Part shown: piece by piece, positions 5,169 through 59,360 of the stretch
How the letters are laid out: each line of letters begins with the position of its first letter
Position numbering within the stretch: the stretch's first letter is position 1
Assembly: GCA_026874595.1 (NCBI GenBank)
Contig: CM049320.1
Location: 42,046,714-42,110,713, forward strand
DNA from: Sipunculus nudus
Taxonomy: Eukaryota > Annelida > Sipuncula > Golfingiida > Sipunculidae
Direction: 5' to 3'
Length of the DNA stretch: 64,000 bases
Position numbers and translations under genes: made by a program
The notes under the pieces: generated by a model
Told to the model about the DNA's origin: nothing
Database searches by the model: none
What the model saw: the letters and a program-made list of their open reading frames with translations, nothing else

Positions 5169-6426
5169 TCAGGAATCCTGGTGGATGGAAACTACTGGCA
5201 ATACAGGTGGGGGTGGTGGACATCTTGAGGCTCCAGCTTTGCTGGGAGAGCTTGTCCGGGCTGAAGCTCTCTGCACCTTTAAGGTTTCTTGGACCTTCTT
5301 TTCATACCACTTTCCCCCATCAATAGATATGATGATGTCACCTTGGCTCCCTGCAGCTATGCAGCTGTTGCATCTGCAAAATAAAATGTAAAAAAAAAAT
5401 AAAAGTTTGATACAAATTTCTGAGCTTTTCACTTTATTCTTTTGAGTTGAATTTAAGAATTTATATTGTGACAATATAAGCTATGTACGTAGCACTTCTT
5501 GCTGTTGTGAATAATTTGTTACATATAAAAACAAAACAATACATGATTATCTCAAAAGAATTAATCAGGCCCAAAATGGGCTATGTCATGTTGAAAAAAC
5601 AAATGCTGTATGGCCCTGTTATTTACCTTGTGCTTTAATCTGCAATTTTGGTTACAAGACAGTTAAATAAGAGTTAATAACTATATATCATAGGTGTGCA
5701 GATCTAATTTTTGAACTGGGAGATATATAATTATCCCTCTATACTTGGATTGATAACAGAATGGGGGGGGGGGGTCATTTTACTGATTTATCATTGTAAA
5801 AATATTATTGATTCTTTTATAAATTTTCATTATATACATTAATAACGGTTCTTCATGTTTATGACTTGAATGAAAATTATAAAATAAACTACCTTACAGT
5901 AATAGTAACAACATCTTCACTACCAAATTATTTTAAAAGCCTTTGTAGGCTTTGACTTTGTGACTTACGCTATGACAATGACATGATACTACATTGTAAT
6001 GAAGATTTGATCCCTGCCTTGCCAAATAATTTGTGACAAAATTTTTTACATAATCTAGGAATTAATTAATTTAATTTAATTGATTTAATTAAAGGGTTGA
6101 TTCATGCATTCATAATGTAGCTGGCAAGCAGCTGTCATGCTGACATTACCACTGATTACACGCTAGCAATGCCTATATGGCTCGAGGTCTCACCTGTAAA
6201 CAAGTGTCGGCTTCTTTCTCGTGACCGGCAACCCTCTGCATTCCAGCCATCTCTTCTTGACACACAGAATGTGGACAAACCTTGCTCCTGAACCATCACT
6301 TTCAGTCAGCGTTATGTTAAAAACTCGCAAGAACTTGCCATGATTGACGCTACTAATATCAACACCATGCACAGTAGGACATAGACTGGTACCCCGCTCT
6401 ATTTTGGTACCGCTGCTCCAGGCCAA
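5169..6426 (-). CDS. Possible two-exon minus-strand gene fragment upstream of the SWIM relic
   Basis: Two open segments join in frame across a plausible intron. Exon 6426-6194 ends TTTACAG|GTGAGA. Exon 5373-5169 follows the acceptor ATTTTATTTTGCAG. The 2+1 split codon restores one reading frame (RKKPTLVY-R-CNSCIAAGSQGD), which runs through a proline-rich tail (SRCPPPPPVLP) to a stop. The first segment has no in-frame ATG and has a stop just upstream, so the 5' end is missing or the gene is dead. It may belong to the same decayed gene as the SWIM fragment 80 bp further along the strand. I do not recognise the protein. Confidence 0.2.
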
Positions 6427-6489
6427 TCATAGATCTATGCTTGGCTGCGGGCTATAATAACTAGAGCAGGGTACCAGTCTAAGTGGGAC
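6374..6489. repeat. Imperfect 28-bp inverted repeat
   Basis: Arm 6374-6401 and arm 6462-6489 match in 23 of 28 positions when one is reverse complemented; the shared core is TAGACTGGTACCC. The 60-bp loop contains agatctatgcttggctgcgg. It could form a hairpin or be the remnant of a small foldback element. Confidence 0.6.
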
Positions 6490-7887
6490 AGCTTGTGTTT
6501 GTACTACTCGGCTTTGTGTGTGTAATACGTAGCACAAAGCGCAGAAAGTGATAACGTGTAACCGATCAGCGCTATTATCTGTTGGGTTGACGGAATATGA
6601 GCAAACGCCTTATTAAATGGCACACAAAACTCCTTAATATTTACAATATACAATATTTATTGTGCCCGTCGTTAGTTATAGCTCTACATGTATTTTATTC
6701 ATGTCACATCGATTCTATGCATTGAAGTAAATGTTTATGCAAGGTTATCACAATAAATTGAATAATATGACTATGTTTAAATTAATATATATACAAGATT
6801 CCACAATTACTGGTGTTTATATACAAAACTGTAAAAATATTCTCAAATGTTATATAAATGATGGATATCATCCAATACACAATCACACTCCCCAAACAAA
6901 TAGTGAACCCCACAGCTGTGATCAATATATATATTGCACTTTCCCTCATTGTGCAAGAGCCCTGTATGTCACCCGAATGTTTTCTGGCTGCCGCAGTATC
7001 TTATCTCCACTCCAGCCCTGGGCCGGTTAAGTGAGCTCAGCTTCCATCGCTGTAGCCTGTCGTATGCAAACACGTTGTTATGACCACATGATGATGCCTC
7101 TGTTGCATGTGGTTTTATATTACGAGGTCTGTTCCTACAATTTGCGGCAGCGGTCAGAAAGGAAAGAGTTTACCCAGCAAAACCTCAACATAGAGTTCAC
7201 CGTTCTGTCAGTCTAGATAAAATACACTGTCAGTAAATGAAGAGATACATTAAAGTGATAAGATGTGAGTATCTCTGACCGAAACGTACAGCATCATATT
7301 ATCAGCGGGTCTCCTGGTATAACAACAGGGCTGTCACTCGGCTGAACACAGCTGCGTGTCGCATGTCACACGAGAAGTAAGCAAATCTGTGTTTACAGAG
7401 ATTTAAAAAGAGAAAATGCTAATTTGACCCATGTAATGAAATATCGTCAATTTGCTGGACGTCACATTGGCTGGCTATATATGAACTTTTTTATTCCTTT
7501 CCGCCACCGTGATGAGGAGAAGAATGAGATGACGTTCAACAACAGGTGCCCGGACATCAACGCTTGGACAAGAGCAACACTTTAGCGACTACATAAAAAA
7601 TAACTACATAGGGAATTCCTAAAAATCGGTACTGACTTGTCCGTGATATATCACGTTCACAGGGAAGCCATATTCTAAGTAGATTCATCAGCTGGTGGTC
7701 AGCATATAGGCCTATGTTGTACCACTGAGTTTTTGAAGGTTTACCTTGTAGGAGAATAACTGCTGGAATTTTAATAGTGACCGTCTTTGTTACTAAATTT
7801 CTTTAATTATGTATACAGGATATAGTTTAACATCAGAGGTTAAGCTTTGAAGAAATTCTCTCGAAGTTTTACTGCACAGATCTAGGC
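6490..7887. other. P450 upstream region
   Basis: It holds the presumed promoter and 5' UTR of the P450. I cannot place a TATA box or transcription start. The short open frames at 6731-7216 are unrecognised. Confidence 0.5.
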
Positions 7888-10800
7888 ATGTCTGAGGAAC
7901 CTGAGTCGTTGGTTGGTGCAGTTATTCGAGCATCATTTATTGTACTGGGGGTTATTCTCGTGCTTGATCTGTTACACAGGTCGTGGAGGAGAATGCATTT
8001 ACCCCCCGGACCCCTGAGTCTGCCGATTGTTGGCAGTCTACCTTTCATAACAGGAGATCTACTGGAGGTATTTGCTGAACTGAGGAAGAAACACGGCGAT
8101 GTTTTCACCGTGGATATAGGTGGCGACACTACAGTGGTTCTGAACGGATATGACGTTATTAAGACATGTTTTGTCACTCATGGTCAAGTCACTAAGGACA
8201 GACCGCCGTCGTTTCTGAGTAAAGAACTGCTGAAAAATAAAGGTGAGATTAACCCAATACTTTTGTTAAAATGATGAAGAATGCAGGGCCCTTATATCCC
8301 CTTCGATTATTGTTCGATTTAACGGACTCTTCAGTATAAAGGGGGTTATGAATACATAACATGGAATATGAAATTTAAATTAACGTATAATACCCTTTAT
8401 TCCGACATGCGACGTGCGACATTTGGACTATTACGAACGATGGCGGCACAGGAACGGTTTCAAAATGTTTGAGAGGATTGAATCAGTCAAAGATTGATAA
8501 AGCACGAAAATACCACATGGAAATCATGTGAGGTTAGTCTCAACGCGGGAAACTAACTTCGGGAAGACAGATGGGCTGAGAAGCTTGAATATCGCTCTTG
8601 GACGAACACGCCCGTGTTCCATTGCAGGATGAAAAATGATAACTTTAAATGTTAGTTTTATTAAGTTTACCTCGTTCTCTCCCAGACATCAGAATCCTCC
8701 GGTTTATTGGCGATAAGCGAGGGTACCTAATGACCAACTTTTTCAAATGGGGAGAGGTAATGTTAATAAGGATTAAAATGTCGGTATATGCCTCTATATA
8801 TTGTTGCAAAAAGTTGACCTTATAAAAATGATTCCATTTATGGCGTGTATTCTGTAATTGATGAACAAATCCATAAAAAATGAAGGATGTTAAAACACCA
8901 AGTTTAACAAATGGAATTTGTGATCTTTGTTCGAACGTATCGTTAATAAACTCAAAACAAGTATATGCAGGTCTAATGATAAACGATTGAAAGAGTGCAT
9001 TTTCGATTCTCATTTGTGATTATCCAATAAATGAACATTAAAATCAGTACCTAGACGAATAGTAACCCCAATGAGATTTGTTATTCTCCATGACGGGTCA
9101 AATATATATCATTTATTATTATAAGGATAGTAAAGTGAATTTTATTTGGAAAAAAATGTTTAAAAAAATCTAAATTTATTTAAGAAACTTTTCATGTTAC
9201 CCTTTATGTTTGTATAGGTAAATATACTATTATATGACAAATTCATCCTTAAATGTACAGTTAGAAACCCGTAACACTAAACTGGGTGTTTCTATCGTTT
9301 TACTGCATGGGTCAGGACTTTATTTCATCTGGCAGCTTATGTTAGGAATAAATTTAAGCCTGTCCTTTTAATAAGTACAGGTTAATAGTGTTAAGTTGTA
9401 CATATCTGATGAAAGTACATTCTTAAATATTAAATAACGGTTATATCAAATTTGTAATTGTGTAAGTCGCTAAATTTATATTTTCCGTCCACTGCAATTA
9501 AAAATGGGACATTCTAGGTTGATGATATATTGTTTTTGAGATGGAAACGTGGTGGCAATAATTACATGTAAACTTATTATTTATTTTACTGAACCTCTTA
9601 AATTCTGATAAATTTAATATCAATATCTGCCCCAAGTTAATATGTATATGTGAATGAACACAGCCTCAGCAAAGCCTGTCATGACTGAATCAATAATAAT
9701 TACTTGACGATATGTCAATAAACTTACTAATATTACCAGCTGAAAACCTGAGTTATATTCCCAGATGATCCTTTTGTATGCTCCATGTCTCTCTTGAGCA
9801 TAATTAAGGATATATTAGCGGTTGCACAAAATGTACTATTATTTGTTAGCAAGAGCTCCCGAACACAAAATGTCTTCATCAGCAGTGTCATGCTAAGCTT
9901 GGTTACCAAATCAAAGAAAAAGAATTTTTTTTCCTGTTAACATTGAAATACACTATCATGTGCAGATTTGGTTGGATTTGCCTATTGAGTAATTCTATTA
10001 TGATAATTTATTATAATTAATTTTTCTCCCAGGTATCCTGAGTCGCAACGGCAGAGAATGGAAAGACGTTAGATCCTTCATGTTCAAGGTATTACGGAAT
10101 TTCGGTCTCGGCTCTTCAAAGATGGAGGAAAGAATCAAACAGGAAATAGATTGCTTATCTGAAGAAATAATGAAGACAAACGGCGCTTCGTTTGATCCTT
10201 GGCGTATTCTCCAATGGTCGGTAGGCAACGTCGTAAGAAAGATGGCGACTGGTCAACGAGAAGACCTTACGGAGAAAAAAAGTTCCTCATTAGCTGATCT
10301 GTTTGACAGAATGCTGCTCCATGCTGCCCCTGAAAGTCTCTTGTCACTCTTTCCGTTTTTGTCGTATTTCCCAGGTGACATGTTTGGGTATCAGTCCTTG
10401 AAGGTGAGTTTTAGAAATGTGCTTCTCATATTATCAGTAATTATGTCAGCAGTTACAGAGGAAACCCCATAAAAATTCCAGAAGAAACCTCCATAAAAAA
10501 AACTACAGAGGAACCTCTTATAAAAAAACTACTATGACGTAAACCCAGCTAAAGCTGCAAAGGGAACCCTTCAGTAAAAGATTCAATTCAACAATTCTGT
10601 AGTGATCATCAAAGATTTTATTGTCTGAATATGGGCAATTATTTTGAAATAGCATTATATTAGATATGAGAAAAAAAGTTGTAGATGTTAATGCAAGCTG
10701 ATGAAAATGCAATTTAAAGAGTTAGAAGCTGCACAAGGATAAAGGCGATTATTTATTGAGTACGAAAAAAACAGTTAATGACATAGTTGGGTGAGGGAGG

Positions 10801-13800
10801 GTCATGCTTATTGTGTACCATCGAAATTTGCTGGCTTTATTTTGAGGTATATCATTTGTTTCTCTGATGACTCAGCTGCTGTGAAAAGTATTGATCTCGC
10901 AAAACCTGACGATCATGAGGTTTGTTTTATTTGCATCAACTCAGCTCTAATCGGATGTAAAGGTACCAGGTTCCGTGACATTAACTTGGTTTCTGCTATC
11001 GTTAATAACATCACGAATGAATTGTTTTTGAAGCATCACGTTGTTTTTTTTATTTCTTCAAAGTCGATGCCATAATCTTACATGAAAATAAAATGACAGC
11101 GTTATATGTTCTCAATAAGAGTTTCTCAATTGGAGATAAACCCATCCATTTTCTGTGCAAATTATATTAAATTTACATGACAGATTTTTCTGCCTTTTTT
11201 TTGGCTCCATTTCGGCTTTCGGCTGTTTATGGGTGATGAGATTTCATTGTCATTTAAGATGAAGTCTAATCGTAAATTACTTGTATGTTTCAGGAGGTCG
11301 TCGATGACATTACAAGAATCCTTCAGGGTCACATTGACAGACACAAAGAGACCATGTGTGACGACAACGTCACGGATCTAATCGATGCTTTTCTGGTACA
11401 GATCAAGCTGGAGGAGAACAAGGCTGACTCTGTCTTTACCGGTAAATCATCCACAGGCTTTTTAAAAAGGAAATATGGTCTAAAAATAAAAACAAGAGCA
11501 CCATAAACGTGCATAACACGCCCCTCGTGTATCTCGTGACCTCTGACTTCATTAAATATGCGTGAATTTTGATTAGAATGTAATTCAGGTGATACACTAT
11601 TGGTAAATAATTTTCATGAAAATCCGTAGGATTTTTGTAAGTCACTAAGGTGCCCCCAAAGTGCGAAGACCTCTGACCTCATTAAATATGCATGGATTTC
11701 GCTTGAATTCGAAATAAGGCGAAATATTTTATTGATTAACATTTCTGGTGAGTTTTTATCCAAATCAATCATATACCTTCTAAGTTATCGCGGCGACACC
11801 ACAAAGTAGCCATGACCTGTTTAAATGTGCGTGGACTTCGCCCAATATCGAACTCAGGCGAGACAATCTGTTGATAAGTTATTATGGTGAGTTTTGCCAA
11901 AAAATCAATTATAGCCCCGATACGTTATCGCGGCGACACTGAAAGTTTAACGGACGGACGGGTATCCCATAATACTCCCGTCATATGACGGGCGTATAAA
12001 AAGAAGCTTTTGATGAAATTATTACATTGCTACCTGAAGGGGCATGATATAGGCTTCAAAGTCTACCTTTTAATTTTAATTTTTGCTTGTAAGCAAGGCG
12101 GCGTACCTCGAGAAATATACTCCACACTTCGAGCTTTAATATTGTGATTTGGAGAGTATCAGTCAGTCTTTAAGTACCACGTTGATGATTTATTTTATAT
12201 AAATTATGTCTTTAATTTAGATGATATCGGGTATAATAATGATTATAATAATAATAATAATAATAATAAAAATAATAATAATATAAATAAAATAATTATA
12301 ATAATTATAATACAACTATTATTGTCATTATCATTAATGTAATAAATGTTGAGAGCTATAAAATTCATATTTTTACGTTAAGTAGTGCGAAAATGTATCA
12401 CTGTCAGGAAAGTGTTTTTGCATGAATAAGTATGCAGGGAGAGTGCATTTTTACCCTCTCCAGCCCAAGATGCCCGATGGCGCGTAGTTCCCATGTCTGA
12501 AACTTAATGGTAGTATAAGTGCAAAAATAACGCGGAGCCAGACGGGTTTTTATTATTGGTGATCAGTTGTGACAACTTGACTATTAAACACTCTACACCT
12601 CGACATTAATGATGATCTTTACGTATAACTTTGCTCTATCAAACCAACGATTTTCATCAATATGTTAAGCATATGTCTTTTTACATTGTTCATATATCGA
12701 CAGAGGACGAGCTGGTCAGTGTCCTCATAGATTTTTTGGTTGCTGGTACGGAGACAACAGCTGCTACCATCTACTGGGCATGTCTTGTACTAGGCAAGTC
12801 CCCGGATGTCCAGAATCGTCTGGCCAGGGAGCTTGAAGACGCTGCCGGGCCCAGAGGGATAATTCCTTATAGCGACCGACAGTACTTGCCCTACACGATG
12901 GCCTTCATACAGGTATTTTATACAGTACAACATGTTTTCATTCGAATAGAATGTTATGTTAAATATTTTACATATGTCAAATATTTTGTGTACCTTACAA
13001 GAAATACATGTAATGCATTAAGAAAGCGAGCGAAATTGACAAGTGTCCCACTTTTCCTTTATGTTCATTTTTTCCATCTGACAGTCTACGCTATAGTTCC
13101 ACTACCCCTGTCCACCTGATTTTTAGCGATTATCTAAACATAGGACAAACTTGCCAAACAAAATTTGCGCCAGTTATAAAAGAGGCAAATGCGTAATTTT
13201 TTGTACCTTACCTGCTCACGATATAAATATTATTTACTTTACGGCCTGGTAGGCTTGTCTCGTATATATCTGTTGTTCATTGCGTTCCTAATAAGTGGCC
13301 ATTGATATTTTTTATCCTCCTGAGATATAGATATAAATGTGAGGTGACGTAACAGTGAAGCGCGTGCACGAGGAGAATACAAGTCTCACTGTAAACAGAG
13401 GTCGGCTGCTCTTGATCATTGATCCCATGAATGTTGGTGCCTCTTTAGTACGACACGTCCATTATGACATCATCACTGTTCCCTGATATGTCTATTTCAA
13501 AGATTAGTGGCAAGATGTCTAGAATAGACTAGTCTCTCATAAAATGGTTTTAAATTGTTCACAGGAAAATGCCATAATGTAGGCTATTATTTCCACAATA
13601 GTTTATTACGCATTTTCCTCTTTCTGCTCTAAGGACAAAACGTTTTGGCGTTCTTTTACTCACAAAAATTATCACAAAAACAAGTGGATAGGGGTGATGG
13701 AACGGACCTGTCGCATATTTAAAGGCTTCGAAACATAGGGTCACTTTGACGTAAGGCTCTTATATTATGAATGCATACCGTGATGTGTTATGCTGAAACT

Positions 13801-16176
13801 CTGGTCATTCTATTAATGTTCGGACTTCATTGGTAATAACCATATGTAAGGTCTAGCGATTTCGAATTCGATTAACCATGAAGGCCTCACATATCCGGGC
13901 CTCTGAACAATTGGATAACGTTTTGGTTTAGCACCAAAATTCAGTTAAGACATTCTTGATTACCTATTATGGTTGATCACAAGATCAAGCCGGGCATACA
14001 TATATCAAAACTGACGATGGACGCCTTCAACCGTTGTCACGCAACTCCTCTGTGGCCACCTTTTGGAAATGGCCGTTGTTCGGTCTTAAATGGCGGTACC
14101 TTTAATGCCAAGTGTGTCCTAATGGGGTGCATTTTTAACATATTTTGTGAAGGGGCAGCCCTATTTATAGGTGCACGCCTATAGTATCTGTAATGAAACT
14201 AAACTGATCTTCAAGTACAGCCGTCATTCATGGATAATTAAATTGTTTTACCTATATTTTACCAGAACTAGGAGCAGCAAGCACACTTATAGATTTTGAG
14301 GAAAAGGTGAAACTTGTGTTTTTGATATAAATGTGTGAAAATAAATGTTATCCCTCTTTTTATAAGTTTACTACTGAAATCTTAAAAGTGCATGATAATA
14401 TCCTGCAATATGGATATTTTGCCTTTGCACAAAATATTGATGGTACTGATCACCACGTTCAGATAATAAAAGAGGTTACCACATAAATAGTCTTAAGGTT
14501 TAAGGCAACGGTCAGAGGCGATTTTATAAACACAACTATCCTGGTATCTTATTGAATAAAGATATTCTGAACTACTTATTTGGGTTCTCGGGCACTCCTT
14601 CCCCAATCTGCATACAAACCTACCTGCAACATAATTGACCTATCCATGAACTCTATGTGACCTTAATCGCATATTCATTCAATGAATAATCATAAGAATT
14701 GAACTAACGAGCAATCAGTCAGGTAACCGTTGGCATTGTAAACCGTCAATCATCTGACAAGCACAAAATTTGCATAATTTGGCAGAGCTCTTCCAAAGAG
14801 AACACGTTTAGTCTGAACTAGTACCCACGTCGGGATATTTTCGGGATTTTTTTACAAAGGAGACAGTATGAATTAAAAGTTCTTGGCAAAAGGTTACAGG
14901 AGCCATTCCTCGAACTTCCGAGTGAATAATAATGTCTTACCTGGCACGTAATTTGTATGAGACAAATAATCTAAAATATGGCAAGACAATTTACAATGAC
15001 CGAAACATATTCAACAATGGAGAACAGTAATTCCAGTTGATGACGTCAGTCAATGCGACGCCATGCGTCATCAACCTTTTGTGACGTCATTATTGTCTTA
15101 TAAACAGCTCTTGCAACCATGGGCAATGAAGACCTTCTTTGTAGGAGCGTTTTAGGGGCTCATTATAATACCTATAGGTTAAACGGGCGGAGCATATCGG
15201 CTTTAGTGGATAGGTCAATTAGCAACTTGCCCCTGTGTTTAACCTCTTTGTCGGCCAGTTCGACTTAAGTATCACTTGGTTTTCACAGCATATATAACAG
15301 CGCTTTGGTTATGGTTCCTTAGTGGCATTCTATTATTCGGCTGTTACAACAGGAGCTACAACGCCTGAGTGACGTCGACCCTGTTGCGTCGCCTCATGTA
15401 ACGTCTGGTGACGTCACAGTGAGCGGTTACGTCATCCCGGCCGGCGTGACGCTGATTCCGAACATCCATAGTGTCCAACATGACGAAACATTGTGGCCCG
15501 ACCCGGAAGTGTTTGATCCTCAGCGCCACCTGGACGTCAACGGTGTATTTACAAAACGAGACGAAGTCATCAGCTTTTCTCTAGGTGCTTAAAAACGGAT
15601 ATCCCACAATGGTATTGTTATATTTATGGATATATGCGAAAGAGCGGGAGTCAGTCAGGCAAAAAGAAAGAAAAGGAGACAAAGAGACATAATCGAGAAA
15701 AAGGATGCAAATATAAACAGATTAATTCAGATTTAAACCAAAAACAAATGCACATCCCACTTAGATTCAGATAAGGCTTTATTCATTTTGTAGTTTTCAT
15801 TAAGCATGCATATTGTAAGCATGGTATATTGATTTGCATAGATATGATTTGGAAAAATAATATAGGTTTAAATAGTCAAATTAGTAATAAAATTATTTTT
15901 TCTAAACGTGATCTGTCCTGAAGATATGAACATCCTATTTGGTTAATTGGTAAGAATCAATAATGACAGATATTTTATATGTTTGCAGGACCCCGCGCAT
16001 GCGTAGGAGAGGGTCTCGCACGTATGGAAATATTTTTGTTCCTGACCATTTTGGTAAGACAGTTCAGAATCCAACCTGCAGATGGCGCTTCACTCCCTTC
16101 TTTTAAAGCCAAATCAGGTCTTCCACGGAAGCCATCCCCGTTTCAGATTGCTTTCATTCCACGCAAACATGACTGA
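7888..16176 (+). CDS. Cytochrome P450, CYP2-clan type, complete, six exons
   Basis: Haem-thiolate monooxygenase, expected on the ER membrane, oxidising small lipophilic substrates with electrons from P450 reductase; the substrate cannot be read from sequence. Exons: 7888-8242, 10033-10403, 11294-11441, 12704-12912, 15353-15584, 15989-16176. All introns are GT-AG and phases agree (1,0,1,0,1), giving 500 residues plus TGA, the usual microsomal length. Visible in order: hydrophobic anchor about residues 10-30, PPGP hinge at 39-42, helix-C W128xxxR132, I-helix oxygen-binding AGTETT at 305-310, ExxR as ELQR 362-365, a PxxFxPxR segment (PEVFDPQR), and the haem loop FSLGPRACVG at 436-445 with Cys443 as iron ligand. 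No key residue is missing. The start is the first ATG before the anchor, with G at -3. CYP2-clan placement follows from the exon 1-2 text (DRPPSFL; WKDVRSF; LRNFGLG) and the I-helix; the subfamily is not assignable by eye. Confidence 0.95.
8243..10032 (+). other. P450 intron 1 (1.79 kb)
   Basis: AT-rich intron, donor AG|GTGAGA and acceptor TTTTTCTCCCAG, phase 1. No internal gene or clear repeat was recognised. Confidence 0.85.
11510..12003 (+). repeat. Dispersed repeat of three diverged tandem subunits in P450 intron 3
   Basis: Three successive blocks of roughly 130-150 bp (near 11521, 11654 and 11801) share the themes 'gacctctgacNtcattaaat', 'tgcRtgRatttYg', 'aactcaggcgaRa' and 'gttatcgcggcgacac'. 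The unit ends in a GGACGGACGGG stretch followed by the perfect 16-bp palindrome CCCGTCATATGACGGG at 11977-11992. This looks like an interspersed repeat carried in the intron; the family was not identified. Confidence 0.6.
12913..15352 (+). other. P450 intron 4 (2.44 kb)
   Basis: Longest intron of the P450, donor CAG|GTATTT, acceptor TTACAACAG, phase 0. It holds two perfect TGACGTCA octamers close to exon 5 (15041-15048 and 15082-15089). Open frames inside (for example 13969-14184) match nothing recognisable. Confidence 0.8.
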
Positions 16177-18420
16177 GGCTATACTTTACCAATTAATGTT
16201 TTTGTTTTCCTAGGCAAAACGAATATTTAAATGACTCGCGAAAATAATACATTTATAAGATTTATTATATATCACACTATTGCCAGTTTTAATACAACTG
16301 TAATGTATCTTTGTATCTATGTAGAAAAAAATGAACCCAGCTAAAGTTTACATTGATATGACTGTACATTACATGATCTCGGAATGATTAAACTTTGTAG
16401 TAATTACATATATTTATATACTGGCACAGGACAAACCCATAATTACATGGCCGAACGTTAATTCATGCATTGTCACAACCGTCATGTTTTCGAAAGCTCA
16501 TTTTGGATCAATGAATCGAATAATCTTATCCAAGGAGACGTGGTTGAGAGTTTTCCAGGTCAGATTTTCACATATATTCAGAGACAAAAGTCGACCATCT
16601 TGACCGTATCCACAATAAAATTGCTTACCAAACCACGTTTTTGTCTCGTTTTTTTTTTTTTTTGTGTCTCGCGTCACTTGTGTATACTCCAATGATATTA
16701 CTTAAGTTTTCTCACGTGGCCCGAAAATAAAAACGATTGTTTTAACTGAATTTTAGAAACCCACGGAAGCTCCATCCTGTGACCCTTTAGTGTAAAATGT
16801 TCTCCGTACGGACTATCAATTACCTGTATAAAACTGATGACGTTTAAAATATGGGTTTTAAGCATCAGAACGACTCGAACGACTGAAAACGCGTCATGCG
16901 CTACAGAAAGCCATTTTTGTTCGATCCGTCAGTGTTGCGAAATGCCGAGCGAAGCGATGCATTTATAAAACAGCAACAAAGGAGACTTAGATAAAGACGT
17001 TCGAAGAGTAAAAGGGCTACACAGAAATACCTCCCCGCCGGCCGTCGGACCTCTTTTTCATTCCACGACACAGGATCGTTATAAGTGCGCATTTTCACGA
17101 AACTATAAATATTAAGGACAGAGGCATTTTAAAATACAACAGACATGGCTTCCCTGATATTCATTCACTGTTGATTTTTAGAGCTGACTACCACCTTTTG
17201 GCAAAGATATTTTGAAGTACGACTCACACCTGATGTTTAACCGTAATTTAATGTCTTAATGGTTACACTTAATTAAATAAAAATAAATGGAGAGCGGCTG
17301 GCCAATCAGAACCCTCTTAACCGGGGGGGGGGGGGGTGAATTTGTCATGGGAACCAGACCTCCTCACGGTGTTTGTATTGTGTTTGGTGAAGACAGTTTT
17401 CCCAGCATGTATCGAGAGGCATACACCTAGTGGCATGCCTGACAATTATTATGCATATCCTGCAAAAGTGGAGCTATCTCAGATATACTGTGCAGCGACC
17501 ATGTATGATCGGCCTACATCCGTACCCTCATAGACAACACAGTACCTTCATCCGGGAGCTTGTAGGCCTTTTTTGTTAGGGTTGGGGTTCACAACAAAGG
17601 AAAATTCATCATATTTAAGCGGATATTACAATGGGATCTTGCAGCTGTTGTTGATGTGCATTATTCGTTTGCAGGAATCAGGAATATTTGTTAATTAATT
17701 ATCCTGTTGAGTCATATCTTCATGTAGTATATATCTATTTTCTGTAGGCATATAAACCTAAACTAGACCACCTATTAAAACGTCTGACATGTGTACTTTC
17801 TAAAAGCACCCACCATGTGCAAAAAAGATTCCGCAAAATAAAATATATCTCTGCAAATTAGTTGAACTGTTGGTCGCATACAAGACTGTGTATCCACGGG
17901 TCTTGTAAGTGACAGCAAAGTCGTGACGGGCGCAGAAAATGACGGTAGTTTCCGTGGTGGAATTTACGCTTGAATTATCTATTCACCGGTACTTTCATGT
18001 TATGATTCCTGGCTTTATTAGAGCGATACTGCCGCAGCTGGAATTTAGTGCAGCTTTCCTTGTGACTGGCTTCATGACGTTTTATAGGCGCTATCAGTCC
18101 ACGTTAATGCTTACTGAATCTTCTATACTGAACCCTATGAAGACGAATGCATTCTTCTGTCTTTGTCTTGTTTAATATATTTGTTTCATTTCAACTCCCT
18201 GTATTTTTTATTTATTTGTAATTGCTCCCAGTGCACGTCTTTTCATTATTTCGTAAAATAATGAAAAAAAACCGGCATCCCTGTCTGTCATATAATTATA
18301 GTATATCGTCCTGTAATAGACACATTCCCCATTCATTCAGCCGGTGAAAAAGTAATTTTTAATTTTTTAAAAATTTTTAGATATTTATCTGGTGATAAAC
18401 ACACAGCTGTATAATATATA
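16177..18420. other. Interval between P450 and the GC-rich block
   Basis: P450 3' UTR and intergenic DNA with a poly-G run near 17324-17336. The missing N-terminal exon of the glycosyltransferase could lie here, but no open frame shows a clear signal anchor followed by a donor site. Confidence 0.5.
16614..16731 (+). promoter_or_regulatory. Candidate polyadenylation signals of the P450
   Basis: AATAAA at 16614-16619 and 16726-16731, 440-550 bp after the stop; a variant ATTAAA lies at 16387-16392. There is no closer canonical signal. Which one is used is unknown. Confidence 0.3.
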
Positions 18421-18429
18421 CATCGATAG

Positions 18430-19140
18430 ATTTTCTGCGTGCCTTCCGCTGTCACTTAGGGAAAAATACCTTCCATACCATGTCCGTTACACCGCTCAGG
18501 CAATAACTAGGGTTTCTACGCCGCAGTTTTGCCTCTTCGGGTACCCCCCCTCTTTGCACTGAGGTCGCCAGAACTGACACGCCAGCCAGCCAGGTCCGGC
18601 CCGCCCTCGCTGACCGACCACCACCGGGGAATCCCCCAAGTAAAACCGGGAGCCTGAGCCTAGCAACCAGCCAGTAATGTCCGAGCGTCACCGGCCTACC
18701 CCTGGACTACCGTGAGTCCTGCCCTGAGCCTTGTCCCTTTCGACCAGGTACGGTGTTCGTTCGATCTGAGCCTTTTCCGGAGCCTTTCCTGGTTCTCGTG
18801 CCATCATGCTTGAGCCTTGTCCCTGCTGATCCTGACCGGACCCCCGGTTTTTACGTCTCGGAGCCTTGTCCCTGATCCTTTCGGGATCCCCTCAACTTTT
18901 ATCCACCAAACGGCTGGCTCTTTAGGGCCTGGTTCCATACTGTCGGCAACGGACTGGCCTACTCTTCTATCGAAAAACAGTATGGGATCTTTTACGTGCC
19001 CATCCCCTTCTGGACACGGGACCGCCATTTTACGTCCTCATCCGATGGACGGCCCGTATTTTGCTTTTGCAGTCGGGCGCTGCAGAGCCCGGAGCCTTTC
19101 TACCCCTCCCCCACTTTTTCTAGTGGGGTGATGATACTGG
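18430..19140. repeat. GC-rich interspersed block with 'gagccttgtccc' subrepeats
   Basis: About 700 bp markedly richer in GC than its surroundings. It repeats GAGCCTTGTCCCT-like words at least four times (near 18725, 18765, 18810 and 18860) and later contains GGGATCTTTTACGTGC and GGGACCGCCATTTTACGTCC. Similar words flank both ends ('gaaaaataccttcc' near 18462, 'gaaaaataccttca' near 19145). It is probably a foreign repeat element; the class is unknown. Confidence 0.45.
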
Positions 19141-19602: not shown

Positions 19603-21495
19603 CTTGTTTGTCGTCACTGCGAGATTATCCTACACATGAAACTGCGTTCAGTAAAAATGGTATTTGCTACAAAGCAAAGCTTGGTGAAGTTCTCTTCAAA
19701 GTTAATAAGGTATCGTCGAAGATGAATTCAGGAATTCTATCCAACAGAGATGTTCAAGGCGATATGGCTACACAGTATGTTGTACCAAATGTAGTGCACT
19801 ATGTTTGGTTCGGTGCGAATAGAACATTCACCTTTTTAAATTATTTATCTTTTCTCGGGGTGACGAACTTATCAAACCAGAGCAGATCCTGGTTCACGGA
19901 GATGCCGAGCCCGTGGGTAAATGGAGGAGGTCCGCACTCAGTAAGATTCCTGATATCTACTTTGTGAACCGCCAGAGGCCGACACAAGTCATGGGAAAGA
20001 AAATCAAACTGGTTCAACACAGTGCGGATATCGCCAGATATGAAACAATATTAGGTAAGATACCTACATATGTCATTATGTTGCAGGAATTTTATTATGT
20101 TATATTTTAATATAACACCACCGTTTTCCTCATATTAATGGCGAACCTATAATTTGGGGATGACTACACGGTCACAGATAGAGCGTTCTGCCTAATATCA
20201 TAGGTTTACTGGTCAACTTGCCACCAAACCTTTTCTGTAGATTGGTTCCCCCTACAGACTGTCGTCGGAGCAATTTTCTGTCATATTGCCCCCATTACAC
20301 CAGACGTCGGAATTAAGGGTTTCACGCTAGTGTAAAAGAATTCTAACAATAAGCCGAAAAAAAAAAAACATTCACATAGTCAAATATACATGTGCCAATT
20401 TATTATACCTGCATTCACTCTCTCTCCATACAAAAACCGACGTGAGACTGGTATATATGTATATTTATATATTTCAGGTATATCGAACCCGGAACTTCAT
20501 GTATAGTGGGATGTGCTCTGACGACTGAAAAATTGGAACGCCCGTGTTCACACATTTAGAAAAGTATATTTATACATGTAAAGACTGAATACGTGCTCCG
20601 ACTACCGTGATAAACAAAGTTGGAGCTAGGTATACAAAGACAAACCCTTTTGAAGTTCCATTATGCATTATGGTGGTATTTAACTGGAAACTGGTGTGTA
20701 TATATTTCCAGATTATGTTGGCATTTACCTGAATACAATATGTGTATATACATTTATTTCCATATTATGGTGGAATTTACCTGAATACTGATGTATATGC
20801 ATTTCCAGATAATATTGGCATTTACCTGGATACTGATGTGTATATATTTCCAGATTAATGTTGGAATTTACCTGAAGACTGATGTGTATATATTTCCAGA
20901 TTATGTTGACATTTATCTGAATACTGATGTGTATATATTTCCAGAATATGTTGATTTTACCTGAATACTGATGTGTATATATTTTCAGATTATGTTGGCA
21001 TTTATCTTAATATTGATATGTATATTTCCAGATTATGGTGGCATTTACCTGGATACGGACGTCCTGGTACTAAAATCATTCGATGCCCTGAGGGGATACA
21101 ACTTGACCTTGGGAAGACAGTCCAAGTACAGAATAGCCAACGGCATCATTATAGGTCAAATGTTCTCGCCCTTGCTTCGAATGTGGCTGGAGTCGTATTC
21201 AACGTTCAACAGTGATGAATGGGCAATCCACTCAACATTAATACCACACAAACTAGCAGATATATTTCCTAACCTGGTGCATATTGAGGAAGGCACCCTT
21301 ATTAGTCCCGGTTACCGTATAGGTCGCAAATTATACAAACCCCATGCTTATAACTGGACTAACAACTATGCAGTGCATGTATGGAAATCGCTTGGAAAGG
21401 TGCCCCGTGACCCCCAAGAAATCCAAAAAATAGATACTATCTTAGGGGAAATCATGAGATATATCTTTTTTAGTTCGAAGAAAATCAACTTCTAA
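19603..21495 (+). CDS. DXD glycosyltransferase, GT32-like (Gly_transf_sug family), catalytic exons, with one frame break
   Basis: Expected to be a Golgi type II sugar transferase of the alpha-1,4-galactosyl/N-acetylglucosaminyl-transferase-like group; donor and acceptor are not readable. Exons seen: 19603-20054 (acceptor GTCTCCCAG, donor TTAG|GTAAGA) and 21032-21495 (acceptor TATATTTCCAG), phase 1 junction giving YETIL-D-YGGIYLDTD. Evidence: VVPNVVHYVWFGANRTF near the domain start, then KIKLVQHSADIARYE, then the metal-binding DxD in GGIYLDTDVLVLK, NGIIIG, and the family's C-terminal NYAVHVW...TLGEIMRYIFF before TAA. About 305 residues are visible; the family usually has some 350-400 with an N-terminal anchor, so an upstream exon is missing or unrecognised. 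In the first exon the frame changes between FLG (near 19855) and ELIKPEQILVHGD (from about 19865): one base appears lost at the GGGG run. That is either a real lesion or an assembly error. Everything after it is well preserved. Confidence 0.85.
20655..21060 (+). repeat. Minisatellite of splice-acceptor/exon-start copies in the glycosyltransferase intron
   Basis: About eight head-to-tail copies of a 43-52 bp unit, each resembling 'tatatttccagattatgt' followed by 'tggcatttacctgaatac'. The last copy is the authentic acceptor and the first codons of the DXD exon. AG or its equivalent lies at 20711, 20763 (mutated to AT), 20808, 20853, 20899, 20944, 20988 and 21031 (authentic). Several copies still read as variants of DYVGIYLNTD. 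Confidence 0.85.
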
Positions 21496-24400
21496 TCATC
21501 ACATACAGGAAAAGTGAATTTTTAGTAAATGGCTTTTATGGATCCCTTTTCAGAATACTATATCACCTTTGATCCGTATGGCGGCCATTTTGACGGCTAT
21601 ATTAGGTTTTTGATAGATGAAATGAATACATTCATGTATGTTATGTCTAAGAGTTTTCAATGATGAGAATAAGTAAGATCTAAAAATGGTTATTATTGAA
21701 AAGAAATCTTAGTTGGAATGGATATGAAACGATTTTTGTCGATGCTAGAGTGGAAATACGATAAGTTAAATAATTTCCTGGGGGGGGGGGGGGGTTAAAT
21801 ACTGAGCGATATTACCAAACATGAAAACTGGAGGGGATGTGACTGAGACGCAGTAGGCCTAACATCACCAGAAGGAATAACAAAACGGTTTAATGGTCAA
21901 AAAGCAGTACTAATAAATATTTTAAGTGGAGGTAACGCCTCCATTTTTTAAATAATTTAACTACGTATATATGTATATCTGCAGAGTTCCATTCCGGTTT
22001 CGGACTACGTGACAGAGCAGTATCACACGCTTCCTCTCATTTTATATCTGGCGTCAACCAGGCCCGGCGACTGCTGTTTATGCTATCGCCAAAAGATGGC
22101 GCCACAGACTGGTCCTCAAATTAAATTGTCTATATAATACAACAACTCCGTGGATAAATCATAGCCAAGAAAAAGCAAAATATTTGAAAATTCACGCATA
22201 TGTTGGTTGCTGCATGAGTTCAGAGTGTCTGATTATCAGAATATAGGTTTATTTACATATTCTACAATGACTTACTGCAAAATAAATTAAATATATAATT
22301 GCTATTTCTTTCATCTAATCAAACATTATGTGTTCCTTGTTCCAATTACATTTAAACAGTGGTTCATATTTAAATTCAATTCAGGACCAAACGTACGTCC
22401 TTTCATTTACAGGAAAAATGATGTAAAATTACATTTGTAAGCAATATAACAGCCACAGAATCAAATCTAATCCAACATATTCCGATGGCCTGTATAATAT
22501 ATCTGCTGCGTTTATACCTGCACCATTGCTGGATTTAGAAGCCACAGTGCATTTTGGAGAAAAGGACTGCTTTGCCCATAATCTCTAGAGTCGTTATTTT
22601 ATGGGTGTATCCTGCATAGTGTGCGAGGATCATCCCCTCTCAGTTTGCAAAGTTACCTCTGAAGATATTATATCCACTTTCAACTCGTTGTCCTTTTGCA
22701 GCTGTCATGTCAACTGACAACATATAAACTATTTCGCGTGAAAAACGTGCCTCGGGGAAAAATGTCATTTTCTGAATGGTCAAGAACATGTAGCGACGTT
22801 TAAAAAGGAGATAGCTGGCCGAAGTAAAAAGAACAGTACAGGATCCAAGTAAACATAATACATGAATCTGTATAATGAATACATGAACATAACAAGAGGA
22901 ACCCCCCCCCCCCCCACCGGAACATGATGTTATAGTAATAGTCTCTGTTGATAGAGGGAAGCACCATTAAATCCACGTGTTTAGATTTCTGAATTGGTCA
23001 ACTCAATTAATTCTCACTTACTAACATAAGCATGTATTCGTGTACACTAGTATAATCAATACTCCCTAACTTCAAAAAGAAGCAAAACAAGAAAACTAAA
23101 CAAACAAACAAATAATTTGTCAATTTAATTTATACCCCAGATGTGTCTGGACATGTCCCTGTTTTTAAATTACTTGCAAGCTTACATAAAAAAAATAATT
23201 AAAACCACATATTGGCACAGGTTTATTGTACATAAAAAAGCAAAATTTAAGCACAAGGTTGATCTTAAGTCTCAGTAGATCTCAACAATACAGTTAAAAA
23301 TAAACATGACCATCATACACTTATTGCTTACCTCATATATGGTTTAACTGTCGCAGTCTCCTAAATTAAAAAGAAGCGAAAAAAAGCACCCCCTGAACCC
23401 GTAAAGTGGTTTTATCCTTAAATGGTGAATAGCATTTGGCTAGAGGTCACTCACTTATCACATTAGGGAGGGATTTCTATATGGAAAATTTTAAAAATCA
23501 GTCCAGGAGTTGTTTGTATAGTTCGTATATGTAATCCTCGTGCTTTCTCCAGTATTCTTAACGTCAGAACTTCAGTGACAGTCTATTTTTCTACTTGACT
23601 CGGTATGGACCAGGCCTGATTTCTCGAATTCTATAGCCTCCAAGTCCGAGTACAAGACTGAGTCCCTGAAAAACGTAAACTCCTGTCTGGACGCGAGTCC
23701 GCACTCAACTTCTCATGAGACAGAGTAACAGCACTCACTCTCCGCCATGAGGGCATGCGCTCATGCTGGTTTGTGTGTGTGTCTGTACGTGGGTTTGTGT
23801 GTGCGTGGGTCTGGGTTTTTTTCACAACATAACTCGCCGCATCATGTACGGAATCTCATGAAATTATAAGAGCATTTCGGGAATAGGCCTAGGAAGAACC
23901 GATTAGATTTTTGTGCGCATCCATTATCTCCGGTTTTTGGAGCGTCATTAAGGAATATTCACAAATGTACGGTCACTTATGCACGAATGAACCTGGGAAT
24001 ATGGGCAAAAAAATAAGTGAATGTAAACAAGATCTAGCCCCTTGTGCCGCGCAATGAGGCCTTTTGCCACCTGTTCACGTCACTGTCGAGCGCCGACATC
24101 CTCATGATGACGGTGTCAAATGTGTTCGCAGAGCGTTTATGAAACTAGTGATCTTAGGTGTGCTCATAGGTTCTGAGGTGATTTGATGCACTTCCGCTTA
24201 GTGAGGATTCCGCGTAAACCCATGTATCCATTACAGGCGGAGGCATGTATCCATTATAATGCAGATTTCTAGATATGGTCATGTTTTTGTCCTTCATTCT
24301 CCATCTTAATATATATCTTATCCTGGGCAAGAGGACAATATAATAGGGAGAAATATACTTAACTTCAGGAAGCAAGTTTGAGTAACAGTAAATCTAAAGT

Positions 24401-35079: not shown

Positions 35080-37536
35080 TTCCAGGAGCGAAACATTGTT
35101 ATCATTTCTTATCAGAGAAGATTTTCTTAACATTATTTCAGTTGCCGTCATACAAATATCGCCCTTTCAACAAAAAACAAAAGTTGTAAAACTCAAGGAA
35201 TCGTTCGGAGAAAAGCATGTCTACACAAGGATCAGGCATCTTGTTATTCCCCCGCCGTTAAGTGAGAGGACTACTTAAATGGTCCTTTCGTCCGTCTGTC
35301 CTTCCATCTGTCCGACCCGCACCATCACTGATGCCACACTCTCAAGGTTAGCATATGGCCGGGCACCATTGTGGCCCTAGGTCCTTATGTATTTTAAAAT
35401 AATTAGTTGGGCATTCTCCAACATTGGTTACAGACGTTTAAAAATTCGAATTACAGGATCTATCAACCATGACTCACTCAACCATTTCTCATGCAATGCT
35501 CCAGCTGTCCTTGGGCACCTTGCTTGTGAACATGATAAGGCATTTAAATAGAAAGAAGCCTTTTTCAACTCTTTTTTCTCATAGAAATAAAAATCATTTA
35601 CTCTTTTACTCTTTTAAACAAAACGTCAATATATTATCATTCAAATAAAAAATAATAAACAATGTCTGAATATAGATACATCATAGCATTTAATTTTTAT
35701 GATCGGCAGTGGAAATTTACTGTTCCGTCATAAATAACATGTATGGGGGACTTGGATTTGGCTGTATATATCAGTTGGAATTCTCAATGGGGAACCTGTT
35801 TGGAAATTATTTGTCCTTGTCGCTCTTTAAAAGAAAAAGGTGTAAAACGGTACAAGACATTTTAGTAAACTGGCAATGATTAATACCTAAAGCATCGTTT
35901 TATGGAAGATTTATTATCGATTACAAATATATATGTAAACGATAATGCATAAATATGCGAACGAAAGAAATGCATTTTATACTTCGGACGTATATATAAA
36001 CGAGATCTGACGTTTGAACGTATAAAAGCAAGTTATAGATTAAAGAAGCAACTGCATACATGGAAAAGAAATTTAAGCTTTACCAGTTATTCAAAATAAA
36101 CGCTGATGCGTAATATCTTAAAAGTAGAGAATAATGTTCAGTCATGAGTTATTTGTTAGCCTTTTTAATGATGTTTAATGTACTTAAATGTTTATATGTA
36201 GATGTGTCTTTATGACTGATCAATTATTTGAGATTAAATAATGAATGAAATGTTCACATCGTTTGGCACTTGTGCTCATTTCTCATGTCCATCTCTATAC
36301 GATATAACTTTAAAAAAGAGTATTTATATACCCAAGTCTTATTTTTATTTATAAATCGGTTAATAGAAAAAATAATATCCAGATCATTTATTCTTTTGCT
36401 ATGAATTTCATATTCTTACTGCTTGCTCCAGAGAAATCTTTATTTGCTGAGTAAATTAATCCTCTGCCAAGCAAGATTTATCACGTAATTATCGACGTTG
36501 GTTGATTCCTCTGTTAGCATCTGTACTCAACAGTTATGACGGACTTATGAGGAGACCGAGAAAAAAAAAACAATCCAAAATAATTTAAAGTTTACCTTGA
36601 TCACAATAATATTTTTTATTTAAAAGAGGCTTAACTGTTGTGAAAAAAGGCGATAAACAGATTTTGGTTTTCTTGAGTTGAATATAAATTTCCGAAAGAG
36701 AAGAGAAGACCGGTTATACAAAATCGAGTTGATGAACTTGCCACACATTCCTCATGATTAGATATAATTATCGCGCTACATAATGTAAATTAAAACAATA
36801 CATATAATATGAATTGTCTGACAAAGTGTGCATTTACGTTTGTCTCAACTTTGAATTGTTCATCAACTTCATGAGTTTCCAGTTGGAAACTGTGTCTCGG
36901 GAAAATATAATAAATTGCACATCTGTACCCATTAACAACAATTTAAAAATTTACATATTGTCAGATCGTATATGAAGTGAAAAATGCAAAAGGTATATTT
37001 AATATTTATAGCCGTTGAGTCATCTTTTGTTAGTTTCTAGTCTTCAAATTATTTATATTGGATTGAAACTATACTACTACATGTTTACAAGAGATTGAAT
37101 GTGGTGTTACGACCCATAATGTAATAACCGGCCCATAATGTAATAACGGCCCATATTGCAATAAAAACGACCCATAATGTAATAATGGCCCATCATGTAA
37201 TAAAAACGGCCCATATTGTAATAACCATACCCTGCCCATATTGTAATAAAATCGCATGTGGGTAAAACGGCCCATATTGTAACAAAATCGCAGGTATGTA
37301 AAACGGCCAATAATTTTATAATTCAAATTTCATGCAAATTAACTAAGACAATTCAAATATTGACTTCTCGTGACACGAATGTGTAAGTGAACATACAAGT
37401 ATGAAAAACCACTGGATTACATAATGACTATCTGTTTAAAACGGTGACCAAGCTAATATGAGCGACATATGGCTTTGATTCATGTTTATCCTTTTGTTGA
37501 ATCAGTGTTTAAATAGGATGATAAAGTATTTAAACA

Positions 37537-38203: not shown

Positions 38204-39313
38204 TGGTATTAGATTAAGTGAAATTCCGAAAGGACGGCGAGTACTGGATGCGACCGGGGCCCAGCCGAGGAGCGGTGAGGATTTTCATGGTCGGCCTCCA
38301 TTCAGAGTGGGCGCTCTGCATAATCGGAAGGCTGTGCCCCACAAACAGTATCACGTTTGTATCACAAAAAGGAATGCAAATTGGCGAGTTCTTCCATGTT
38401 ATGACTCAGTAATGGGGATGATTTCACACCCAAGCCTCTCTCAGCCTTCTTCACCCTACCCGCCACCCCAGCCAACCCCCACCCCTCACGGTAAAACACC
38501 CCCCCCCGGTTACCCGCAAATGATCCGTAATAGTAAATGCGTGGAAAAAGTGAAGACTTTACCTCACCTATACTGTAATCAGCATGGTGGGGGCTAAAAT
38601 GGGCAAAAAGGCCAATATTGTAAAAAAATGCAGTTTAGAAGATTATGATTAAATTCGTGTCAAATTTACGTAGCATAAATGTTGACTGTTTCACTTGATT
38701 TCCATTATGACTGCATCTCTTATACCAATGAGGAACCAAAATGGCTATCATTTCAGAAGGTATTCTCAAACGACATATCGCCTTTTAGATTTGGGATTCA
38801 TTCTTGAGCTTAAACATATGTTATTACAATATGGGCCATTTTTCCCACTTCTAGTTTTATTACAATATGGGTAGGGTATGATTATTACATTATGGGTCGT
38901 TTTTATTACAATATGGGCTGTTATAACAATATGGGCCGTTTTTTTATTACATTATGGGTCGTTATTACAGTATGGGCCAGTTTTATTACAATATGGGCAG
39001 GGTATGATTATTACATTATGGGTCGTTTTTATTACAATATGGGCCGTTATTATGGGCCGGTTATTACATTATGGGTCGTAACATGTTGTACTGGCCATCT
39101 AATACCTCTTTCTCACATCCATCAATAACAGTTAATCTTTTTGTAAAATCACTATTCTGAAGTCTAAGAAAAAAAAGGGCAGATTTTCGGGGTTTTTTTT
39201 AAAAAGGCAAAGAATTATTTTTTATAGGTATAAAATGACTTAAATTCAAATAACGTATATATCTAGCGATTCACCCATTATAATCTTTTGAACATCAGAA
39301 GTTTACACTGCAA

Positions 39314-57029: not shown

Positions 57030-59360
57030 GAAGAGTACATGCCTAGAGCTGACAAGATAAAGAATGTAACAGATGACAAGGTTCAGGCACGCGTTCAGAG
57101 CTAACACGAAAAGAGAAGAATACGCGTGCGGTGTTGACAGGTTACAGAGAAAAGTGAATGTCCAAAGCTAAGTAGTTAAAAAAAGAGGACATGTCCAAAG
57201 CGAAGTAGTAAAAACAAGAAGAGAACACGTCCAAAGCCAAGTATTGAAAAAAGAAGAGTACACGTCTAGTGCAGACAGGTTATATAGTAGAGTTCACGTT
57301 CACATTCAAGTTGTAAAAAAAAAAAAAGAGTACATGTCCAGAGCTAAGCAGTTAAACTACAAGAGACGAGTTTTAATTGGAGAAGTTTTTATTGAAATTC
57401 GTAACTCATGTTTCAAAATAAAATTTTAGTACTTTTGTTTAGCACCACTTATTATGTATGTTTAAATGTAGGCGCTAAATTAAATGAATAAAATTTAAAT
57501 ATATCCCCAACTGATTAGATATTGAAAAGAGTACAGGTTGATAACACAGAAGACAAAAAGTACACGCCAAGAGATAATAAGTTACAGAAAAGAGGACACA
57601 TCCAAAGCTAAGAAGACGCACAGCCCAGAGCTATCATGATGAAAATAGTGACCAGATCAAAGAAGTGATTACGAAGAGTTACACGATAAAAATGATAAAG
57701 AGAGAAGGTCACGTTCTGAACTAAATTTAAATGTAGTACACGTCTGTAGGTAACGAAATAAGTAGAAGAGTAAACGTCCAGGGCTCAAAAGAGAAACAGA
57801 GGATTTCACGTCTAGAGCATGGAGGATAACAAGAAGAGTAGACCAATATGTTCAGAGTTATAGAGGATAATACACGTCAAAAATGTAAACAGAAGAGGGC
57901 ACATCCACGCTAGGAAGATAAAGTGAGTACAGATCCAGGGGAAAGAATATAGAGAGAAGAATTCATGTCCAGAGTCGATAAGTTAATTCGAGAGTACATG
58001 TCCAGAGGCCAGGATATAAACAGATGAGTACATGTCCAGAGGCTAGGATATAAACAGATGAGTACATGTCCAGAGGCCAGAATATAAACAGATGAGTACA
58101 TGTCCAGAGGCCAGAATATAAACAGATGAGTACATGTCCAGAAGCCAGGATACAAACAGATGAGTACATGTCCAGAGGCAAGGATATAAACAGATGAGTA
58201 CATGTCCAGAGGCCAGAATATAAACAGATGAGTACATGTCCAGAGGCCAGGATATAAACAGATGAGTACATGTCCAGAGACCAGAATATAAATAGATGAG
58301 TACATATCCAGAGGCATGAATATAAACAGATGAGTACATGTTCAGAGGCCAGGATATAAGCAGATGAGTACATGTCCAGAGGCCAGAATATAAACAGATG
58401 AGTACATGTCCAGGGGCAAGGATAAAAACAGATGAGTACATGTCCAGGGACCAGAATGTAAACAGATGAGTACATGTCCAGAGGCAAGGATATAAACAGA
58501 TGAGTACATGTCCACAGGCCAGGATATAAACAGATGAGTACATGTCCAGAGGCAAGAATATAAATAGATGAGTACATGTCCAGAGGCCAGGATATAAACA
58601 GATGAGTAACTGTCCAGAGGCCAGAATATAAACAGATGAGTACATGTCCAGAGGCCAGGATATAAACAGAGTAGTACATGTCCAGAGGCAAGAATATAAA
58701 CAGATGAGTACATGTCCAGATGCAAGGATTATACCGATGAGTACATGTCCAGAGGCAAGGATATAAACAGATGGGTACATGTCCAGAGGCAAGGATATAA
58801 GCAGATGAGTACATGTCCAGAGGCAAGAATATAAACAGATGGGTACATGTCCAGAGGCAAGGATATAAGCAGATGAGTACATGTCCAGAGGCAAGAATAT
58901 AAACAGATGAGTACATGTCCAGAGGCAAGGATATAAACCGATGAGTACATGTCCAGAGGCAAGAATATAAACAGAAATGTACATTTCGAGAATCAATGTA
59001 GAAGCGTAGAGTACATGTCCAGAGTGAATGAGTTAAACGGAAGTGTGCAAGAATAGAAACAGAAGTGTACATGTCCAGAGGCAAGAATATGGACAGAAGA
59101 GTACATTTTCCAGGGCAGGAATATAAACAGAAATATACATGTCAAGAGTCAATACGTTAAATCGAAGAGTACATTTCCAGAGGCACGAATATAAACAGAA
59201 GAGTGCATTCCCAGCAGCAAGAATATAAACAAAGAGTTCACGTCCAGAGGAAAGAATATGAACAGAAGAGGACACCTCCATGCTCAGGAGATAACATGAA
59301 GAATTGAGGTGTCAAAGCTAAGAATACACGTCCAGAGGCAAGAATAGAAAGAAGACTTAA
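57030..59360. repeat. 34-bp minisatellite with homogeneous core and degenerate flanks
   Basis: Core about 57993-58970: roughly 28-30 copies of a 34-bp unit, on the plus strand 'agtacatgtccagaggcc' followed by 'aggatataaacagatg'. Copies vary mainly at 'ggccag/ggcaag' and 'gatat/aatat'. Degenerate relatives ('agtacacgtccaRagctaa' and similar) extend left to about 57030 and right to about 59360. The minus strand has long open frames (57963-59084 and 58043-58996), explained by a stop-free unit whose length is not a multiple of three. I do not regard them as genes. Confidence 0.9.

Follow-up and report, generated by a model that had tools for sequence, protein, structure and literature searches.

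The window, a stretch of 64,000 nucleotides (contig C15, positions 42046714-42110713 of a 1.43-Gb assembly in 153 contigs), carries a glycosyltransferase gene on its plus strand. The catalytic part of exon 1 lies at 19779-20054 and is followed by a phase-1 intron of 977 nt (20055-21031, GT...AG) and by exon 2 (21032-21495), which is open for 154 codons up to a stop ending at 21495. The original prediction of a DXD glycosyltransferase is borne out by the end of exon 1 and exon 2, which in one frame match PF04488 (Gly_transf_sug) with 47.7 bits against a curated cut-off of 23 (E 2.7e-12); a search of the PDB returned a single, non-significant match, a mannosyltransferase (E 0.66). Together with the D codon that is split by the intron, exon 2 reads DYGGIYLDTDVLVLKSF..., and it shows no gap in the 467 nt that align to the adjacent paralogue. 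Since an AATAAA motif lies downstream at 21912-21917 and exon 2 has a stop-terminated frame of 149-158 residues in all 20 family loci that were read, it looks like the last exon and is probably terminal.

Several other features lie in the window. A cytochrome P450 gene with at least four exon pieces is found upstream of the glycosyltransferase (7831-15592), and a 26-bp repeat (10454-10532) sits beyond the apparent donor of one of its exons (10401). Two arrays of a similar motif of about 20 bp, in opposite orientation and about 1.5 kb apart (37109-37312 and 38855-39053), are possibly the subterminal repeats of a DNA transposon. A 34-bp minisatellite of at least 30 copies (57924-59274) holds overlapping minus-strand frames that stay open over as many as 392 codons.

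Anatomy of the boundary array

The 3' end of the glycosyltransferase intron is occupied by eight head-to-tail units on the plus strand (20667-21031), which were delimited by segmentation, Tandem Repeats Finder and alignment and measure 45, 52, 45, 45, 46, 45, 44 and 43 bp. The head of the authentic exon 2 begins directly after the last unit, at 21032. Tandem Repeats Finder, run on the window, places the array at 20755-21056 with a period of 45, 6.8 copies and a score of 413, and gives a period of 91 as an alternative (score 434). In each unit the first 31 nt or so of exon 2 precede about 14 nt from the end of the intron. The source of the exonic part, 21032-21062, reads DYGGIYLDTDV with the split D codon and thus includes the DXD motif. 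Some eight copies spanning the 3' splice site and the exon start had been predicted at 20655-21060, a range close to the one found.

The leftmost unit, U0 (20667-20711), has no AG at its own left edge and ends in a decoy AG, as do U2 (20764-20808), U3 (20809-20853), U4 (20854-20899), U5 (20900-20944) and U6 (20945-20988). The 52-nt unit U1 (20712-20763) has CAT in place of the acceptor AG, and the end of U7 (20989-21031) is the authentic acceptor. The six decoys lie 320, 223, 178, 132, 87 and 43 bp from the authentic AG, exactly the distances given in the original prediction.

The units differ from one another by 0.19 on average in the alignment. The mean difference is 0.12 among U3-U6 and 0.25 among the four outer units, the most extreme of 70 possible splits for a grouping that was chosen post hoc. 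Adjacent units resemble each other no more than remote ones do (P 0.49), so the order of the units shows no trace of local copying.

The most frequent unit length is divisible by three and the units read like DYVGIYLNTDVYIFP in the frame of the exon, as might be expected if the 45-bp period had at one time supplied the protein with 15-residue, DXD-like repeats and had later been made intronic. Such an origin is highly improbable. Length changes are present in at least four of the eight units, the glycine of YGG and the first D of DXD are altered in most of them, and the position of the intron is common to 20 loci. Variation by codon position among seven of the eight units (5/68 and 5/75, against 9/68 at third positions) makes third positions somewhat more variable with no clear bias, and the proposal of a former coding repeat was set aside as unsupported.

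Distribution in the gene family and the adjacent paralogue

Searched at the protein level, the same genome yielded 36 matches, 30 of which were taken up as loci. In 20 of these (L006-L025) an AG stands at precisely this phase-1 edge, and the other 10 read through. Longer stretches were taken for 19 loci, with 4.3-9.0 kb upstream searched per gene. Exon 1 was located for 19 of the 20, the exception being L042, whose intron may therefore exceed the stretch; that of L038 lies only partly within its stretch, and that of L047 matches as three separate pieces. The last of these genes (contig C16, near 13227000) is probably a broken copy. At E<=0.01, copies of the exon edge are found in two of the 20 loci, as the array in the window gene and as a single copy in L010/L039. 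The array is absent from the other 19, and 18 of these 19 related genes have no copy of their own exon edge at all. In L009 (750-1480, gene orientation) about 23 copies of a 32-bp minisatellite unit run to within some 20 nt of the exon and exclude the edge.

Tiling of the exons places the effect at the boundary itself. When 580 45-mers from exon 2 of the 20 genes were each compared with the DNA upstream of that exon in the same gene, over 7 kb at most (E<=1e-4), only probes from two edge offsets found matches, nine in the window gene and two in L039, which argues that the array is not due to chance. At the same threshold no copy was found with the exon-interior 45-mers of this set, nor with 313 donor-side probes from 19 genes (the tiles of L052 and L054 end before a visible GT). 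The neighbouring P450 gene served as a further control, and none of 87 probes over its approximate exon ranges matched window 6001-18500 at E<=1e-4. Because the array is confined to the window gene and interior and donor copies are lacking in these searches, the array is, on sequence comparison, the gene's own exon edge, amplified locally. The derivation of the repeat from the exon edge, which the original prediction had held open to refutation, is thereby upheld within this genome.

A dispersed minisatellite family that merely resembles the exon edge can be given almost no credence. One other locus, L002, matches the array DNA at 71%, and it proved to be a 21-bp satellite with no protein match; the other three non-self DNA matches are the exon starts of paralogues. 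As L002 is the sole match outside the family and is unrelated, the dispersed satellite was rejected, with the proviso that the genome DNA search skips very common words and so leaves the absence of dispersed 45-bp units unproven.

The copy in L010/L039 (contig C16, near 13715902) is a lone, decayed acceptor and exon start at L010 1315-1358, 173 nt upstream of the exon. It is closest to the exon head of its own gene (91% over 34 nt; the runner-up, L040, has 85%) and for this reason looks like a separate duplication event. Its near-twin L011/L040 has no exon-edge copy. The introns of L010 and L011 are homologous only over the last 47 nt or so before the exon; past this break the sequence of the twin (L011, about 901-1453) resembles, by eye, a minus-strand reverse transcriptase of the Gypsy type.

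Two members of the family have thus copied the same exon start and acceptor, apparently independently, and the probed donors and exon interiors have not, which raises the thought that 3' splice-site edges are a hot spot of tandem duplication in this genome. We consider this unlikely. If it were true, it would point to a splicing- or transcription-linked origin of the intron-exon boundary minisatellites called mirages, and these would be a general animal phenomenon and not a peculiarity of amphioxus. With a second event, of a single copy, known from this family, it becomes possible to test whether such duplications recur.

The closest paralogue, L003/L007, lies about 25 kb away in inverted orientation and has 91% identity to the window gene over 289 nt of exon 1 and 85.7% over 467 nt of exon 2. 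It has the same intron edge and a 533-nt intron that carries no array. The two introns do not match past about 10 nt at their ends, except that the array copies match the acceptor edge of the paralogue. Three methods give dN/dS values between the two genes of 0.13-0.18 for the joint alignment and 0.11-0.17 for exon 1. Exon 2 differs by 25 amino acids; 13 of these look like changes of the window gene and 9 like changes of the paralogue, with 3 that are unclear.

The codons of the DXD motif give some indication of when the array formed. Six of the eight units end the first DXD codon in T, as the window exon does (GAT); the paralogue has GAC there. GATGT is kept in five of the eight units; the window exon has GACGT. 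As most of the units share GAT and keep GATGT, the codons suggest that the array arose after the split of the paralogues and before the change of the exon from GATGT to GACGT. This dating is only indicative since the same states recur at the DXD sites of the 19 other genes, with GAT as the first codon in four and GAC as the second in six.

Decoy acceptors and the state of the gene

Only the decoys at distances 132 and 87 keep the reading frame, and both run into the TGA at 20962-20964, in line with the expectation of a shared TGA near 20963. From the farthest AG to the nearest, the products of the six decoys stop at 20791, 20858, 20858, 20964, 20964 and 21215. The view that the decoys could only yield truncated protein is sustained by these early stops in all six products. 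By this reading of the frames, use of any decoy AG would cut the protein before the remaining catalytic half, with a stop in the apparent last exon. Exon-junction-dependent decay is not expected for stops in a last exon.

The strength of the acceptors was scored with a matrix built from 19 other family acceptors, a small set whose own members range from 2.5 to 18.6 in leave-one-out scoring. The authentic AG scores 10.4, and the decoys score 10.9 (20988), 8.3 (20853 and 20899), 8.0 (20711), 7.0 (20944) and 1.5 (20808). The six best of the 33 scored intron AGs, the authentic one included, all lie within the array. The suggestion that the last copy is the strongest does not hold with this small family matrix, which ranks the decoy of U6 slightly above the authentic site. 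A branch-point-like CTGAT is found 17 nt before the AG in five decoys; the authentic site has TTTAT, TTAAT and TTGAT instead.

The ladder of near-equal acceptors could be thought of as a splicing rheostat that reduces how much functional enzyme is made and persists for this reason, with copy number setting the dose. Five of the six decoys score within the range of 7.0-10.9, CTGAT is present in five decoys and not at the authentic site, and the stops would fall in the apparent last exon, all of which would suit such a device. It is nevertheless very unlikely given that the other 19 of the 20 family loci have no array, that the gene is damaged upstream and that a CTRAY motif near the acceptor is present in only two of the 19 other family loci. 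The tuning of splicing that had been suggested for the array found no support.

The damage lies in exon 1, whose frame shifts near 19865 in a region where the adjacent paralogue is unbroken across the catalytic part, so that the PF04488 frame of the window copy is not intact. An assembly error may have produced this frame change, or only one haplotype may carry it. Further upstream in the exon 1 region a segment that looks by eye like a membrane anchor is followed by a stop, and the inferred start ATG of the paralogue is not ATG in the window gene. The paralogue itself has one frame switch N-terminal to the catalytic part, which is either an intron or a lesion. A dead gene had been named as the finding that would overturn the original prediction; the frame change and the upstream stop may partly answer to it.

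These lesions, together with the lost start, would also fit a gene that was dead throughout, in which case the duplication followed the loss of function and is one of several marks of decay. At sites where 17 or 18 of 18 other relatives agree, the window lineage has three changes and the paralogue one, which points in the same direction. Exon 2, however, is not only open but gapless over its 467 aligned nt, and dN/dS between the paralogues is 0.11-0.18. The divergence of the units adds a further argument. If the units radiated in a star-like manner, their difference of 0.19 corresponds to an age of about 0.095 substitutions per site per lineage; over the 362 nonsynonymous sites of exon 2, about 34 amino-acid changes would be expected had it been neutral for that time and at most 16 are seen on this lineage (P 0.0004, or 0.0007 with an assumed 351 sites). 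The test hinges on the age of the array, and repeats may mutate faster than exons; at half that age neutrality has a P of 0.45 (0.50 with the assumed site count) and the test says nothing. The absence of stops in exon 2 is a weak signal of constraint (P 0.17). On balance, a gene that was dead from the outset is possible but rather doubtful. Because too few amino acids have changed for the age that the units suggest, the likelier, although not proven, order of events is that the array was tolerated in a gene that still worked. Given the damage to exon 1, the decoys probably have no phenotype now and may no longer matter today.

Origin of the array and comparison with known systems

The array is probably a neutral mirage that formed after the paralogues split, that is, a minisatellite of an intron-exon boundary that is mostly a tolerated by-product of DNA copying. 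A segment of about 45 bp (the last 14 nt or so of the intron, AG included, and the first 31 nt of exon 2) would have been duplicated, probably after the paralogue split. We infer that slippage or unequal exchange then expanded it to eight copies, with the centre more alike than the edges. The copies lie within the intron upstream of the authentic acceptor and, assuming that splicing proceeds to the last AG, would be removed with the intron whenever that AG is used, so they would be mostly neutral. The gene may have been under constraint when the array formed, although exon 1 is damaged today. The result is a naturally occurring row of near-identical acceptors, spaced mostly at 43-46 nt, in which the exon start has been copied along with the AG. 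Such a row lends itself to the question of how the spliceosome chooses between AGs that are almost equivalent.

Mirages have been described in amphioxus, in Adh3, the globins BflGb6 and BflGb9, TnC and PGBD5 (PMC3087553, PMC3902484). According to these two papers, regular splicing is not disturbed, the units measure 10-160 bp (PMC3087553) and the hosts are cephalochordates. Like these mirages, the array is a minisatellite-like tandem duplication of an intron-exon boundary with units that span the boundary, and its units of 43-52 bp fall inside the size range given (PMC3087553). The layout is that outlined for BflGb6, with the 3' end of the intron joined to the 5' part of exon 2 in both. As in those mirages, the splice signal has survived in many copies but not in every one, here with six decoy AGs and one CAT. 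The boundary units of amphioxus mirages are portrayed as escaping homogenisation, to which the difference of 0.12 among inner and 0.25 among outer units may be compared, the grouping being post hoc. Unlike the amphioxus mirages, the array has a damaged host gene, and the 1.43-Gb genome exceeds what would be expected of an amphioxus, which makes a different animal the probable host. We file it as a mirage by its anatomy.

Other systems share parts of this arrangement. A minisatellite of IFI6 (6-16, G1P3), the subject of work by Turri et al. in 1995, reportedly provides multiple splice donor sites in the transcript. The repeat unit bears a splice site in both cases, but it is a donor in IFI6 and an acceptor in the window. 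Variable internal tandem repeats at exon-intron boundaries are described for human segmental duplications (PMC2812944) and resemble the array as minisatellite variation at the exon-intron boundaries of recent paralogues. Those repeats are discussed there as making new introns, whereas the intron in the window is family-wide and has kept its position. Intron gain through tandem duplication with proto-splice sites, as outlined in PMC2891723 and PMC4974935, likewise copies a splice signal by tandem duplication. It differs in that no new intron has formed in the gene studied here, the phase-1 AG being common to 20 of the 30 loci and the other 10 reading through.

Among invertebrate gene families, the metallothionein genes of earthworms combine exon duplication with minisatellites in introns and are similar to the window gene in this respect (PMC12783039). 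Their exon-4 duplications are absent from the transcript, and the passages available from that paper describe duplicates left out of the mRNA and do not state a unit that spans the acceptor. The literature searched, which comprised open-licence papers only, contained no report of the locus described here. Taken by its sequence features, the array matches a kind that is already known from the mirages of amphioxus, of which it would be a further case. If the host is not an amphioxus, it would extend mirages to another animal lineage with a case that is controlled by an adjacent paralogue.
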